From positions 249,402-313,401 of the forward strand of contig NZ_LS999834.1 of assembly GCF_900537175.1 (NCBI RefSeq): DNA of 64,000 bases, given 5' to 3'. This document shows, in pieces, positions 59,253-64,000 of the stretch. The notes under the pieces were generated by a model. It was given only the letters and a program-made list of their open reading frames with translations. It ran no database searches and was not told where the DNA came from. The stretch is from Lentilitoribacter sp. Alg239-R112. Its GTDB lineage: Bacteria; Pseudomonadota; Alphaproteobacteria; Rhizobiales; Rhizobiaceae. How positions within the stretch are numbered: position 1 is the stretch's first letter; every line of letters starts with the position of its first letter. A program made the position numbers and the translations under genes.

Positions 59253-59675
59253 CTACCAGCCAAAGGCAAATGTTGCGCCTGCATTGCCATTACCATTTTG
59301 GTTGGCATGCGCATCAGTATTTTTCCCAAACTGAAACAAACCGTGAGAGTTATTGTTACCCACTTGCTGAACGGTTCCGTTGTGACCGTTGCCGTGTTGA
59401 TGAACAATACCCTGATTGCCTGATCCATTTTGCGCAACGCCAGCATTGTTGCCATTTCCATTTTGCGTGATGCCACCTTGAGATTTAATGCCTTTAACAA
59501 TTGAATAGAATGCTAGCCCTGTCTTGATAGCATTTGCATCTTGGGAGTTTTGTGCAGCAATATCGATTTGAATTTGACCACCTGCTTGCGCGGGCAGAAC
59601 TGCCAATGAAACCAGTGTAATAGCTGTAATGCCAGTTGCGATTGAAGTCATTGATTTACGTGTAAGTGAAGTCAT
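59253..59675 (-). CDS. Curlin-repeat protein (CsgA/CsgB-like)
   Basis: 140 residues: a signal peptide (TAITLVSLAVLPAQAGG), then from about 65 on an array of Gly/Asn/Gln-rich repeats of the curlin type. Examples are GGITQNGNGNNAGVAQNGSG, GNQGIVHQHGNGHNGTVQQV, GNNNSHGLFQFGKNTDAHAN and QNGNGNAGATF. Such repeats stack into the beta-helical amyloid of curli fibres. The region before the repeats, about 35-65, is different and could be the part that binds the cell or nucleates. Which of the two curlin proteins here is major subunit and which nucleator cannot be told. It has its own upstream motif (59729) and terminator. Confidence 0.85.
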   Translation of the reverse strand: MTSLTRKSMTSIATGITAITLVSLAVLPAQAGGQIQIDIAAQNSQDANAIKTGLAFYSIVKGIKSQGGITQNGNGNNAGVAQNGSGNQGIVHQHGNGHNGTVQQVGNNNSHGLFQFGKNTDAHANQNGNGNAGATFAFGW

Positions 59676-59728
59676 GATCTATTTCCCTAGTATATAAATT
59701 ATCTGATGACTTCAATCTACAACCCACC

Positions 59729-59758
59729 AACTGAACCTAATCCCAACACCTTGTTCAT
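59729..59758 (-). promoter_or_regulatory. Curli-regulon motif, copy 1
   Basis: On the minus strand ATGAA-N18-TTCAGTT, ending 54 bases before the curlin start at 59675. The same motif with the same spacing occurs at 60810 and 61964. Confidence 0.6.
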
Positions 59759-59805
59759 ATTCCATTAACCATACAATATCCCTTATTGCCGGTGTACGAA
59801 ACAAC

Positions 59806-59828
59806 AAACCCCGCGGTGAGCGGGGTTT
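59806..59828. terminator. Terminator after the CsgH-like gene
   Basis: AAACCCCGC-GGTGA-GCGGGGTTT, a perfect 9-bp stem with T-rich ends on both strands, 28 bases after the CsgH-like stop. Confidence 0.85.
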
Positions 59829-59855
59829 ATGGAAAGTCAAAAATCTGAATATGCA

Positions 59856-60242
59856 CTATTTGATTATCTCCTGACATTCAGCAACTTGGTCGTCAAATAT
59901 GATATGCAGATTTGCATTATATGCAGCCTGTCCTTTACTCACGACAACCTGGCTCAATGTTTGCTGTTCACCATTAGAAGTTAGGAATTCCCCACCTTGA
60001 GTGATATTTACGCCAGTGCCATTACTAATACCAAATTGATAACGTCCTAAGCCGGCGTGTTCGGCTTCAACTGTTGCTTTAACCAAAAACGTATTACCCT
60101 GTTGTGTTGCTTCTATTTGACATAATGCAGCATCAGAATTTGCTTCCAAGGCCTGTACGGTAACGACGGAATAACCCACGATTGCTGGTAGTAGCATGCT
60201 TGCCAAAAAACCAACTTGAACGACTTTGTTTTTAATAATCAT
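59856..60242 (-). CDS. csgH: CsgH-like curli chaperone
   Basis: 128 residues with a signal peptide (VGFLASMLLPAIVGYSVVTVQA). The mature part has two cysteines (ALCQIEATQQGN and AECQEIIK) and a beta-sandwich pattern (FLVKATVEAEHAGLGRYQFG, SNGTGVNITQGGEF), as in CsgH. CsgH of alphaproteobacteria is a periplasmic protein that stops curlin from forming fibres too early. It is found only with curlin genes, which agrees with its place between the two here. The gene lies 69 bases after the upstream curlin gene, with a stem-loop between them. Confidence 0.8.
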   Translation of the reverse strand: MIIKNKVVQVGFLASMLLPAIVGYSVVTVQALEANSDAALCQIEATQQGNTFLVKATVEAEHAGLGRYQFGISNGTGVNITQGGEFLTSNGEQQTLSQVVVSKGQAAYNANLHIIFDDQVAECQEIIK

Positions 60243-60261
60243 TTATTGTCTCCTTTATCAT

Positions 60262-60299
60262 TATCCGGTGATGTGATTGGGTTTCATCATCACCGGATA
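60262..60299 (-). promoter_or_regulatory. Stem-loop between curlin and csgH genes
   Basis: A perfect 12-bp stem, TATCCGGTGATG with CATCACCGGATA, around a 14-base loop, lies in the 69-base gap. No T-run follows on the minus strand. It is more likely a processing or 3'-end-protecting hairpin that sets the ratio of curlin to chaperone message than a full terminator. Confidence 0.55.
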
Positions 60300-60311
60300 G
60301 AGCCAAATCCA

Positions 60312-60740
60312 TTAGGGGCAAACTTGAACAAAGGCTGCCGTATTACCTGCGCCATTTTGATCAACATCCGCAGAGCAACCATTACCAACCTGAACACCAG
60401 CGGCGATATTGCCATGGCCATCTTGTGTTAGAACTGATGTATGATTGGCACCAAATTGGCCAACGCCAGCCGAGTTAAAGCTTCCAAGCTGATCCGTCGT
60501 TGACGCATTATTCACGCCTACTTGACCAGTTGCAGCCGTGTTGTGATGACCATCCTGCGTGCTGGTTACGTCATTATTAATGCCATCTTGAAAAACACCA
60601 ATTATATTATGAACGCCAATTTGTCCGCCACCGGCATTGTTACCAAAGCCGAACTGTTGGATGGAAACATCATTTGCCATAACTGGACTTGCGAAGATGC
60701 CAAGTGCGATTGCTGCTGTGATTACGAGTTTATGTGTCAT
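60312..60740 (-). CDS. Curlin-repeat protein (CsgA/CsgB-like)
   Basis: 142 residues; after a signal peptide (VITAAIALGIFASPVMA) nearly the whole protein is curlin repeat. VSIQQFGFGNNAGGGQIGVH, NIIGVFQDGINNDVTSTQDG, HHNTAATGQVGVNNASTTDQ, LGSFNSAGVGQFGANHTSVL and TQDGHGNIAAGVQVGNGCSA show a Q/F-x-G-x4-N rhythm. It has two cysteines (NGCSAD, QVCP), unusual for curlin. First gene of the curlin-csgH unit, with its own upstream motif (60810). The secretion genes csgG, csgE and csgF are not in the window. Confidence 0.87.
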   Translation of the reverse strand: MTHKLVITAAIALGIFASPVMANDVSIQQFGFGNNAGGGQIGVHNIIGVFQDGINNDVTSTQDGHHNTAATGQVGVNNASTTDQLGSFNSAGVGQFGANHTSVLTQDGHGNIAAGVQVGNGCSADVDQNGAGNTAAFVQVCP

Positions 60741-60809
60741 TTTCTTTTCCCTAAAATTGAGTTGTATTGTTTAATGCAACTCATCTTTAGAACAGAGCAA
60801 TTGAACGAA

Positions 60810-60839
60810 AACTGAAGGTGCTATTCATCTAGCGTTCAT
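60810..60839 (-). promoter_or_regulatory. Curli-regulon motif, copy 2
   Basis: ATGAA-N18-TTCAGTT on the minus strand, ending 70 bases before the curlin start at 60740. Same arms and same 18-base spacer as copies 1 and 3. Confidence 0.6.
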
Positions 60840-60938
60840 TATTTATTAACTCAGTTTTTGACAGAACCTTAGTTTACCAATTTGCTATATAAGATACGCG
60901 ACAGTAAGAAACTCAGTTAACGCGAAGGCTAATCTAAT

Positions 60939-61547
60939 ATGCCCATTGCTCGATATCTCTCTCATCCCCAAGTTTTAATTAACCCGGACAAAGATGTTCC
61001 AAAATGGAGCCTGAATGAAATTGGGCAAGCGCGGGTGAGGCAGCTTACAGAGCGCATCACAAAGGATGGCATTCTTTCCGATACGAAATATGTGATTTCA
61101 AGCAACGAAACAAAAGCATTAGAAACCGCCGAACCAATTGTTGATATTTTGGGCTGCACATTAACGATCTGCCCTCTCATGCATGAAAATGACCGCAGCT
61201 CAACTGGCTTTCTAAAACCTGATGAATTTGAAAGGGTAGCCGATCAATTTTTCGCCAACCCTGATGTAAGCGCTCGAGGTTGGGAAACGGCTCAACACGC
61301 GCAAACACGCATATTACAACAGGTGAATGAAAGTCTCAGTTCTCATAAACACGACGATGTTCTTTTTGTCGGACATGGCGGCGTTGGCACATTGTTATAT
61401 TGCGCATTATCAGGAAATGAAATTCACCGTAAGTTTGACCAAGGTGCAGCCAATACTGGTGCTGTCGGCGGTGGAAATTACTTTGCCTTCGATATCAACA
61501 CAAAAAAACCATTGCATGGCTGGCACGCAATGGAAGAGATGAAATAA
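60939..61547 (+). CDS. Histidine-phosphatase-superfamily protein
   Basis: 202 residues of the phosphoglycerate-mutase fold. The usual LxRHG start motif is altered to RYLSHPQV, keeping the catalytic His but losing the adjacent Arg and Gly. The second catalytic His is in FVGHGGVGTLL, and WSLNEIGQARVRQL is as in the family. Substrate unknown; the changed motif makes its phosphatase activity uncertain. It is divergent from the curlin gene at 60740. Confidence 0.8.
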   Translation: MPIARYLSHPQVLINPDKDVPKWSLNEIGQARVRQLTERITKDGILSDTKYVISSNETKALETAEPIVDILGCTLTICPLMHENDRSSTGFLKPDEFERVADQFFANPDVSARGWETAQHAQTRILQQVNESLSSHKHDDVLFVGHGGVGTLLYCALSGNEIHRKFDQGAANTGAVGGGNYFAFDINTKKPLHGWHAMEEMK

Positions 61548-61571
61548 AAAAGGCGGTCAGAGCGACCGCCT
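61546..61571. terminator. Terminator between the phosphatase-like and SH3 genes
   Basis: AGGCGGTC-AGAGC-GACCGCCT, a perfect 8-bp stem, followed on the minus strand by TTTTTATT; it ends the SH3 transcript and probably the convergent one as well. Confidence 0.8.
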
Positions 61572-61580
61572 CCGTCTCTA

Positions 61581-61910
61581 TCAATATTCATATTCGGTGA
61601 TATATTTCTTATTCACCCAGCCCCACTGGTCAGCATATTTGACCTTACACCAATCGCTAGCGTCTTCTTTATAGATACAGCGCTCAACCCAAATTCCCCA
61701 TCCGTTGTCCGGGATTGCAGCTACTTTTTGTGAATAGGAAGCCGGCCATTTTCGCATGTTCAAAACATCCCAAGAAGCAACACCATCCACATAAGCGTGG
61801 TATCCTGCTTTGTAGCCACCGGCGTGGCTTGCTGTCGTCAAAGGAAGTGTAGCCGCGAAAGCTACAAGGGCAACAATTGTGTTCTTAGCGATTGAATTAA
61901 TATTTGTCAT
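61581..61910 (-). CDS. Exported SH3-domain protein
   Basis: 109 residues from the ATG at 61910 after GGAGGGG. A signal peptide (TIVALVAFAATLPLTTASHA) is followed by a bacterial SH3 domain (LNMRKWPASYSQKVAAIP, GIWVERCIYKEDASDWCKVK, YADQWGWVNKKYITEYEY). The two Trp-near cysteines (ERC, DWC) may be bonded. Such domains often bind cell-wall or surface polymers. The motif shared with the curlin genes lies 54 bases before its start, so it may be part of the same surface regulon. Confidence 0.78.
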   Translation of the reverse strand: MTNINSIAKNTIVALVAFAATLPLTTASHAGGYKAGYHAYVDGVASWDVLNMRKWPASYSQKVAAIPDNGWGIWVERCIYKEDASDWCKVKYADQWGWVNKKYITEYEY

Positions 61911-61963
61911 AGTCCCCTCCAAGGAGTTCAAGAATTAATCTTGAACCCAACATAGAGAAGAAA

Positions 61964-61993
61964 AACTGAACAACACTTGAGCGCCCAATTCAT
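61964..61993 (-). promoter_or_regulatory. Curli-regulon motif, copy 3
   Basis: ATGAA-N18-TTCAGTT on the minus strand, ending 54 bases before the SH3 gene. It overlaps a small hairpin CCCAAT-TCAT-ATTGGG (61984-61999). Confidence 0.6.
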
Positions 61994-62068
61994 ATTGGGT
62001 TCAGGTTTCGCTCAGTCTAATTTTATTCCGGAAGGTTCATAAGCTTAATCACTGCTCATGTTACCCTT

Positions 62069-64000
62069 TCAAAATTCTATGCGCTCGATATCAAGGAAGT
62101 TGATTGTCGAACCATCATCAAGCGTGATGATACCATCGGCGTCATCACTTAGTGAAAGACTGTTTGCATCTTGTGAATCAATCGATCCAGATGTCAGTGA
62201 CACTGTCCAATCCGTGCCATACTCGCCCAGATCACCACCAGTATCTGATAATTGAATAGTATCTGTCCATCCGCCACCTTCACCGCCGCTGATGATGTCA
62301 GCTCCATCACCTTCGGAAAATAAGAACATATCACTTCCGCTTTCGCCATAGAGATTATCGTTACCAGTTCCGCCGGTTAGAATATCATTTCCACCACCAC
62401 CCCAAATGGTGTCGTTACCTGCGCCGCCATCAACAGTATCAACGATCGCCGTGTTGTTACTTGTGTCGAAAGTGTCATTACCAGCACCTAGCTGAAAACT
62501 CATATCACTGGATCCGCCATACACATTATCGGCGTGATCCGATCCGACAAAACCTTCAATACTTGTGTAGCTATCGCCATCGGCTTCGCCACCATGTCCG
62601 CCTGCAGCTACATTTTGCATCACACCGCCAGAACCGGGACCATCTGTATCTTGAAAAGCCACATCAACACCCGCAGTCGCATTTGAATAATCGACTGTAT
62701 CTGTTCCGGCCCCGCCGTCAAAAGTATCAGCTCCGCTTCCACTTATGAGAATATCATTACCATCTCCACCATTCAGGGTGTCACCAATGGCCGGTGTCAT
62801 TTCAAACAGTTGAACATTATCCAGTGCTGTTCCACCATAGTCAACATTGCCAACCTCAACAAACTGAATAGTATTACTACCATCGCCCGACCCGCCAACA
62901 ACGGTGAAGGAATTGGAAGACATTGTCGTTGTACCTGAAGTTATTGTGTCAATTAGTTCTCCGTTCCAGTAGACCTCCACACTCGCGTCATATCCACCCG
63001 TTGCAGCTGTATCAAAACTTAATTGATATGATGTACCTGTCGACAAACCAGATAATGCCTGCTCAATATCAATGTTTCCAGGAGCCTCATCCATATCAAG
63101 ATAGTAGTTACCCTCAGTAGTATTGACGCTTCTTTGGCCATCGGCATAAAACTGAAAACCCGGACCAGAATTCAACGTCCAACCCGAAGAGGTATTCTCA
63201 AATCCACCGTTCGTTATGAGGTTGGAGCCAGTTGTTGCCATTCCATCGGCATCTCCAGCGATAAGCACATCATCGCCATCCCCCCCATTCAATGTATCCT
63301 GACCACCAAACCCATGCATAATATCAGTATTTGATGTGCCTGTGAGAGTTTCAGCACCATCAGTGCCTAACTGAATTCCAACGGTTTCTGTATAGGTATT
63401 GCCACCACTATCCGTGACTTGAACGTCAATGGTATCGTTGTAAGTCGAAGATGCGTCATGTTCCGCAACCAACTTGATATCACCAGTGTTTGTGTCGATT
63501 TCAAATTTGCCGCCAGCATCGTCTGTCAAAGCAAACGTAAACGTTTCACCAGAATCAACATCGATAACAGAATCGACACCGCCAATAACTGAACCGGCGC
63601 CGATTGTATTTGATACTCCTATATCCAATCCAGCATTACCGTCAAAGGTCATATCGGTTGGGCCTTCATTGACATCATCGACTTGGATGGTGAAGTCCTG
63701 CACAGATGTTGTGCCATCTGTTGAGGTCGCTGTCACCTGGATCGTGTGAGATGTATCTGTTTCATAATCAAGGCCAGAGGCCACAGTCACCACACCCGTA
63801 TTGGCATCAATGGCAAAGAACCCGCCCGGGTTGGACGATAATGAATAACTCACATGATCGCTCGCATCCGCATCAGAGGCAAACGCCGTCACACCAACCA
63901 CGGAGCCCATGGAGGCGTTTTCAGCAACACTATTACCAGACCCATCTGTGTCACTGATCGCTGTGATCGATGTCTCGTTCACATCATTCACACCAATCGT
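62069..64000 (-). CDS. Cadherin/RTX calcium-binding surface protein, C-terminal part
   Basis: At least 643 residues; the frame is open at the window edge, so the N-terminus is missing. Order in the visible part: a cadherin-like repeat (AIDANTGVVTVASGLDYE, then VQDFTIQVDDVNE), a second related repeat (FEIDTNTGDIKLVAEHDASS), a short RTX block (GGQDTLNGGDGDDVL), and a galactose-binding-like domain of about 140 residues (NLITNGGFENTSSGW to GTALDNVQLFEM). A larger RTX block follows (GGDGNDILISGSG, GGAGNDTIWGGGGNDILTG), then an acidic tail. RTX repeats bind calcium and point to type I secretion with a C-terminal signal. No exporter genes are in view. Probably an adhesin or matrix protein. Confidence 0.85.
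   Translation of the reverse strand, partial: TIGVNDVNETSITAISDTDGSGNSVAENASMGSVVGVTAFASDADASDHVSYSLSSNPGGFFAIDANTGVVTVASGLDYETDTSHTIQVTATSTDGTTSVQDFTIQVDDVNEGPTDMTFDGNAGLDIGVSNTIGAGSVIGGVDSVIDVDSGETFTFALTDDAGGKFEIDTNTGDIKLVAEHDASSTYNDTIDVQVTDSGGNTYTETVGIQLGTDGAETLTGTSNTDIMHGFGGQDTLNGGDGDDVLIAGDADGMATTGSNLITNGGFENTSSGWTLNSGPGFQFYADGQRSVNTTEGNYYLDMDEAPGNIDIEQALSGLSTGTSYQLSFDTAATGGYDASVEVYWNGELIDTITSGTTTMSSNSFTVVGGSGDGSNTIQFVEVGNVDYGGTALDNVQLFEMTPAIGDTLNGGDGNDILISGSGADTFDGGAGTDTVDYSNATAGVDVAFQDTDGPGSGGVMQNVAAGGHGGEADGDSYTSIEGFVGSDHADNVYGGSSDMSFQLGAGNDTFDTSNNTAIVDTVDGGAGNDTIWGGGGNDILTGGTGNDNLYGESGSDMFLFSEGDGADIISGGEGGGWTDTIQLSDTGGDLGEYGTDWTVSLTSGSIDSQDANSLSLSDDADGIITLDDGSTINFLDIERIEF

Follow-up and report, generated by a model that had tools for sequence, protein, structure and literature searches.

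The curlin and SH3 genes and their shared motif

In a stretch of 64,000 nucleotides from Lentilitoribacter sp. Alg239-R112 (contig NZ_LS999834.1, positions 249,402 to 313,401), referred to below as the window, two genes encoding curlins and one gene encoding an exported-looking SH3-domain protein are each preceded by a common DNA element, which is described here as a candidate operator of the response regulator FeuP. All three genes lie on the minus strand, as does the gene for the curli chaperone CsgH. The curlin1 gene (59253..59675) codes for an exported-looking protein of 140 amino acids with curlin repeats, which matches Pfam PF07012 above the cut-off and a CsgB-like NCBIfam model below the cut-off, and the curlin2 gene (60312..60740) codes for a similarly exported-looking, repeat-containing protein of 142 amino acids, also with PF07012 above the cut-off. 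The CsgH gene (59856..60242; Pfam PF21112, and NCBIfam NF041112 above the cut-off) sits between the two curlin genes as the next gene after curlin2, with which it probably shares one transcript. The SH3 gene (61581..61910) encodes 109 amino acids when read from the ATG at 61910; its match to Pfam PF08239 reaches 24.1 bits, below the 27-bit cut-off, and the protein is 62-63% identical in three genomes of the same genus. No CsgG (PF03783) was found in the host genome at E<=0.001, though two curlins and CsgH are present, which fits the statement, in the accessible text of a survey, that only curlin subunits and CsgH are identifiable in many Alphaproteobacteria (PMC3521004).

A preliminary description of this DNA had reported a two-part motif, ATGAA-N18-TTCAGTT, before the three genes and nowhere else in the window with that spacing. 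Exactly three matches are indeed present, each of them on the minus strand (59729-59758, 60810-60839 and 61964-61993; 100 shuffles, preserving single-base composition only as in all shuffles used here, gave a mean of 0.01 and never three), and their distances of 54, 70 and 54 bases to the ATG codons at 59675, 60740 and 61910, as well as the base C, C and T following ATGAA, are as described. Allowing two mismatches gives no enrichment within the window (16 matches; shuffles mean 10.8). Across the whole genome of 3.91 Mb there are six exact copies and none of the reversed control. Two of the six copies (L001 and L003) lie inside open reading frames (ORFs), probably by chance; gene calls in this and the other scans follow a longest-ORF heuristic. 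Beyond the trio of the window, one exact copy, at C1:1568459, is promoter-like.

Architecture of the operator and its -10 element

The motif ATGAA-N18-TTCAGTT covers part of a larger element with four half-sites in 11-bp steps, TGAA-N7-TGAA-N7-TTCA-N7-TTCA, which ends 12 bp upstream of a -10 hexamer. This layout first became apparent from the DNA ahead of orthologous SH3 genes in relatives; the SH3 operators of same-genus relatives (L008, L009, L010) also display extra complementarity of the arms beyond the half-sites (CTGAACGTAGT...ACTACGTTCAG). The motif pairs half-sites two and four at curlin1 and SH3, and one and three at curlin2, hence its three copies differ in register, and it is the -10 element that gives the true register. 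Before curlin2, the minus-strand operator (60802..60838) is TGAA-N7-TGAA-N7-TTCA-N7-TTCA with 16/16 core bases, followed at 12 bp by TAAAGA (60784..60789). Before the SH3 gene it is TGAA-N7-TGAA-N7-CTCA-N7-TTCA (61967..62003, 15/16), with TATGTT (61949..61954) at the same distance, and the weakest copy, before curlin1, is TTAA-N7-TGAA-N7-TTGG-N7-TTCA (59732..59768, 13/16), again 12 bp from its -10 element TAGATT (59714..59719). The downstream TTCA-N7-TTCA box described by Schlueter et al. (2013) is therefore exact before curlin2, takes the form CTCA/TTCA before SH3, and is reduced to one clean half-site before curlin1. Nowhere else in the window do at least 13/16 core bases coincide with a TA in the register of the -10 element, and none of 20 shuffled windows had a site at 13 or more.

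The fixed position of the -10 element, a rule that TAGATT, TAAAGA and TATGTT of the window all obey, was established on 140 oriented sites with at least 14/16 core bases, chosen by a downstream ORF that begins with ATG, has an N-terminus resembling a signal peptide and is preceded by purine-rich sequence, such that the -10 sequence played no part in the choice. With the operator numbered 0 to 36, only one base outside it is strongly conserved, namely the A at position 50 (A50), which is the second base of a TAnAnT hexamer beginning 12 bp after GTTCA. At one-sided sites, chosen in the same way, A50 is found on the gene side in 95/100 cases and on the silent side in 22/100, and upon removal of similar sequences in 63/68 versus 16/68. 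When ORFs are present on both sides (19 divergent sites), A50 occurs on 33 of the 38 sides. Counting a 17-bp spacer from the -10 element places the -35 inside the operator. As a separate observation, at four loci (L045, L047, L056 and L060) a small heat-shock gene, Hsp20-like by eye, is divergent to operator-bearing genes for small exported proteins.

Distribution and conservation of the operator

In the host genome, TGAA-N7-TGAA-N7-CTSA-N7-TTCA with up to two mismatches has 17 matches on both strands, compared with 4 for the control. Near-perfect palindromes precede curlin2, the SH3 gene and four further genes, at C1:67579, C1:188150, C1:1660238 and C1:1568462. The products of three of these four look exported, and that of the remaining one is small and hydrophobic at its N-terminus (exported nature being judged by eye from N-termini throughout); no Pfam match was obtained for any of the four. 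Among 297 genomes of the order Hyphomicrobiales, the palindrome TGAAC-N6-TGAA-N7-TTCA-N6-GTTCA with at most one mismatch is present in 213, and its reversed control in 0/297. A scan of public genomes for the exact site returned at least 118 stretches, and the 80 loci listed belong mostly to Alpha- and Betaproteobacteria with some from Acidobacteria, while the few listed from other phyla may be chance matches.

The operator is also retained before curlin genes of the order. PF07012 was found in 53/297 genomes, which is an undercount, because the same search scored the host genome as negative despite both of its curlins matching this family. From these 53 genomes 30 curlin loci were taken, curlin-like ORFs being recognised by a loose curlin-repeat expression, and an operator with at least 14/16 core bases precedes such an ORF in 21 of them; all 25 of the sites so placed have A50. 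In Methyloligella halotolerans (L122, 5129-5165) an exact operator lies 71 bp before a curlin gene with PF07012. Loss of the motif with retention of the gene was not seen for the SH3 gene in close relatives: in three same-genus genomes (L315, L316, L317) the gene still stands beside its phosphoglycerate-mutase-like neighbour, and the operator and the -10 element are retained in 3/3. Within 12-14 kb around the SH3 gene of these three genomes no curlin or CsgH match was found, and curlins elsewhere in them were not sought. Taken together, the earlier suggestion of a shared regulatory site, read by a multimeric protein and governing secreted or envelope proteins, finds support in this conservation before curlin genes of the order. 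Its naming as an extracellular-matrix regulon is too narrow, in that the targets read are largely small exported proteins together with feuNPQ.

Linkage of the operator to FeuP

In Sinorhizobium meliloti, FeuP is a response regulator, FeuQ is its kinase and FeuN acts as a periplasmic brake on FeuQ, with osmotic conditions and a host peptide among the signals of the system. For Rhizobium leguminosarum, the accessible part of the literature describes reduced iron uptake in feuQ mutants. A study of transcription starts in S. meliloti presents, in the portion of its text that is accessible, TTCA-N7-TTCA (Motif 3) as a candidate FeuP box, located upstream of 12 genes of which five are known to depend on FeuP, and also before feuN (PMC3616915). 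The downstream arm of the operator equals this published box.

The host genome has one close FeuP (C1:694409-695089), with 67% identity to the regulator that accompanies the site in L121, the next paralogues being at 35-40%. It shares 78.9% identity with the annotated FeuP of S. meliloti Ak57, and its nearest named relatives are proteins from Rhizobium, Hoeflea and Agrobacterium. Its receiver and Trans_reg_C domains (PF00072 and PF00486, both above the cut-off) fit the OmpR/PhoB family, and the host locus (L193) carries FeuN-like, regulator and kinase genes in the order feuNPQ, with FeuN 47% identical to that of S. meliloti. The feuN promoter itself contains the arm and a -10 element in register, being TTCATTTACCGTTCA-N12-TAGAAC at -67 in the host and TTCATTTGCCATTCA-N12-TAATGA at -68 in S. 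meliloti. The S. meliloti Ak57 record CP090106.1 (L313, L314), from which feuNPQ and an ndvA-type gene were taken, is labelled plasmid pSymB and has 3.7 Mb; it may be a mislabelled chromosome.

In the order as a whole, the arm lies no more than 700 bp upstream of feuP at 28/30 loci (shuffles mean 0.145); of the two loci without it, one ends at a contig edge. TA is exactly in register at 20/30, such that eight of the 28 arm-bearing loci lack it. At 19 other regulator loci of the host genome, a bare arm occurs in 3/19 and an arm plus TA in 0/19. Linkage extends further, since a gene for a FeuP-like regulator (51-67% identity) is present at 24 of the 80 exact-site loci listed (up to 8 kb), and these linked loci come from Alphaproteobacteria, Betaproteobacteria and Acidobacteria. 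The regulator of an acidobacterial record (L126) combines a receiver with a Trans_reg_C domain, and in L087 and L095 a PepSY protein (PF03413) is encoded directly upstream of the FeuP-like regulator, with a kinase downstream. In L095 the operator separates this PepSY-regulator-kinase set from a divergently transcribed DUF1924/dihaem cytochrome c set, an arrangement that L098, L132, L135 and L152 resemble by eye. Literature searches on a betaproteobacterial PepSY/response-regulator system, and on the letters of the motif, yielded nothing useful.

Co-occurrence carries less weight than this linkage: the operator is present in 206/273 FeuP-positive genomes (E<=1e-65) versus 7/24 FeuP-negative ones, in a tally read by hand with four unlisted negatives deduced from gaps. 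Considering its architecture, its conservation and its linkage to feuP, it is highly probable that the motif is part of a FeuP operator, from which FeuP would activate the curlin genes, csgH, the SH3 gene and genes for small exported proteins; binding by FeuP, and activation rather than repression, are what we infer from these features.

Evidence against FeuP control and competing explanations

A number of observations weigh against control by FeuP. Co-occurrence is not independent evidence, because 12 of the 24 FeuP-negative genomes constitute one small-genome family; 67 of the 273 FeuP-positive genomes lack the operator at up to one mismatch, and seven of the 24 FeuP-negative genomes (E>1e-65) still carry it. 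Of these seven exceptions, three hold FeuP-like pieces (64-79% identity) and three more are genomes that are 61-78% complete, leaving G060, a complete genome whose best FeuP match is only 47%. Equally, nine of the 30 curlin loci have no operator, including those with the long curlin-repeat proteins of family f44, and the third half-site before curlin1 is TTGG. With respect to the promoter model, one arm on its own with TA is hardly more frequent in the host genome than its reversed control (18 against 11 matches), the -10 element of locus L016 is shifted by one base, and sites without a recognised ORF (46) have A50 on 51 of 92 sides. The last result means that the -10 signal is not confined to our gene calls, as expected if some genes were missed. 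ndvA, a known FeuP target in S. meliloti, provides a further check with a mixed outcome. The S. meliloti ndvA-type gene has TTCA-N7-TTCA-N12-GATAAT, with the -10 element 289 bases before the start codon, and among ndvA-family loci an arm (at least 7/8) plus A is found in only 5/22 (shuffles mean 0.73, maximum 4). Those five are the best-scoring members of the family, and the arm is exact in three (shuffles mean 0.02). The host genome itself has no ndvA at E<=1e-200, which also sets it apart from the S. meliloti FeuP regulon.

The preliminary description had proposed an unidentified regulator or an alternative sigma factor. As to the former, FeuP is now a strong candidate. As to the latter, the motif could be an extracytoplasmic function (ECF) sigma-factor promoter with ATGAAC as -35 and TCAGTT as -10; five proteins with sigma70 region 2 are encoded in the genome, three of them in ORFs of 185-207 codons as is usual for ECF factors, and the spacing GAAC-N18-TCAGT is not impossible for such promoters. 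This is nevertheless very improbable, as the half-sites repeat at 11-bp steps on both sides in a palindrome instead of forming two elements only, the three genes do not share one register of the two arms, and the sites cluster with a FeuP-type regulator. Moreover, the motif overlies the -35 region, and the best-conserved downstream base belongs to the sigma70-like -10 element 12 bp further on, outside the motif. A LexA/SOS-type box shares the 11-bp direct-repeat step and has GAAC/GTTC as in the outer half-sites, the alphaproteobacterial LexA box being the direct repeat GTTC-N7-GTTC. That LexA reads the operator is hardly credible, given that the inner TGAA is followed by C (position 15) in only 56%, a second, inverted pair is present, the downstream genes read encode exported proteins with no DNA repair genes noticed among them, and the sites are linked to feuP. 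Chance likeness of three AT-rich promoters, to which the two of six exact genome copies inside ORFs might point, is already refuted by the shuffles (mean 0.01), the reversed control (0 in 297 genomes) and the conservation before curlin and same-genus SH3 genes, so that its probability is close to nil.

Some weight, though still a small one, belongs to reading of the site by a different member of the OmpR/PhoB family whose repeats have an identical step, for instance CenR or a paralogue of FeuP, which we regard as unlikely. S. meliloti has a FeuP-like pair, SMc02366/SMc02367, and the eight next-best host regulators match at 35-40% over their full length (107-155 bits); an arm plus -10 is absent from all of the other host regulator loci mentioned above, and FeuP-like genes accompany the operator in Alpha- and Betaproteobacteria and in Acidobacteria. 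CenR of Rhodobacter sphaeroides, according to the accessible text, recognises TGA-N8-TGA with an 11-bp step, and 29/31 of its units are envelope or periplasmic (PMC9275681). Both the step and this core are contained in the arm, and the regulon likewise comprises envelope genes; the regulator is however a different one, and the CenR-dependent srlA promoter of S. meliloti has another repeat, AGTCAC-N6-GTGACT, which is not contained. The accessible part of the Brucella CenR paper makes no mention of a motif. The ChvI form of Caulobacter, TTGC-N3-GCAA, is not contained in the operator consensus either; ChvI/BvrR was compared by the Caulobacter form only, the motif of BvrR in Brucella being 14 bp long.

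Proposed mechanism and relation to known systems

Under control by FeuP, FeuQ would phosphorylate FeuP while periplasmic FeuN restrains FeuQ, and dimers of phosphorylated FeuP would bind the TTCA direct repeats, whose 11-bp step is about one helical turn. As the downstream pair of half-sites spans the -35 region and lies 12 bp from a sigma70-type -10 element, FeuP is probably a class II activator that brings in RNA polymerase. PhoB is a class II activator that replaces the -35 element at Pho-box promoters. The likeness extends to the 11-bp direct repeats, the fixed distance to a sigma70 -10 element and a winged-helix regulator (PF00486), whereas the half-site differs, and here two arms stand head to head, some of them for divergent promoters. 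At many targets the upstream inverted pair, which completes a 37-bp palindrome, would bind a second dimer, and such a palindrome could serve two divergent promoters where a -10 element is present on each side. The host genes activated together by FeuP would then be the two curlin genes (and csgH with them), the SH3 gene, feuNPQ and no fewer than four others, of which three specify proteins that look exported, such that envelope stress may switch on a surface amyloid and small exported proteins.

With the S. meliloti FeuP regulon the system shares the half-site, the 11-bp step, orthologous FeuP and FeuN followed by a kinase gene, and an arm plus -10 element before feuN and the ndvA-type gene. 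It differs in having often a two-arm palindrome of 37 bp, a fixed -10 distance, and curlin and SH3 targets. In the literature as far as its text is accessible, with subscription work including the 2008 FeuP regulon paper outside this scope, the half-box has already been published as a candidate, and neither the full palindrome nor its fixed -10 element, its spread or its targets among curlin and SH3 genes were found. Rhizobial papers naming FeuP together with words beginning in 'curli-' concern, in their accessible text, root-hair curling or E. coli curli, with no link between FeuP and curli.

FeuP is a two-component regulator of the OmpR type, and CsgD, the dedicated regulator that switches curlin genes in enterobacteria, is of the LuxR type. 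Alphaproteobacteria lack csgD, and the accessible text of the same survey leaves the alternative regulation of their curli open (PMC3521004). We lean, with some reserve, towards FeuP as a stand-in for CsgD in Hyphomicrobiales, where an ancient envelope-stress relay, using a symmetric double box as a bidirectional class II promoter, would have recruited the short CsgH-type curli, so that osmotic or antimicrobial-peptide stress would induce an amyloid matrix. Such a role would tie an envelope and osmotic-stress relay required in legume symbiosis to surface amyloid, and suggests how bacteria without the usual curli regulator could turn on biofilm fibres. Once a regulator can be named, its operator written out exactly and the distance to the -10 element fixed, the question of curli control becomes testable in one strain, and the loose published FeuP motif is sharpened into a low-background promoter model (palindrome with at most one mismatch) that predicts FeuP targets across much of the order. 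At the locus itself, a large repetitive ORF, RTX/cadherin-like by eye and with its promoter outside the window, lies upstream of the SH3 gene on the minus strand (62069-63991) and runs past the end of the window.

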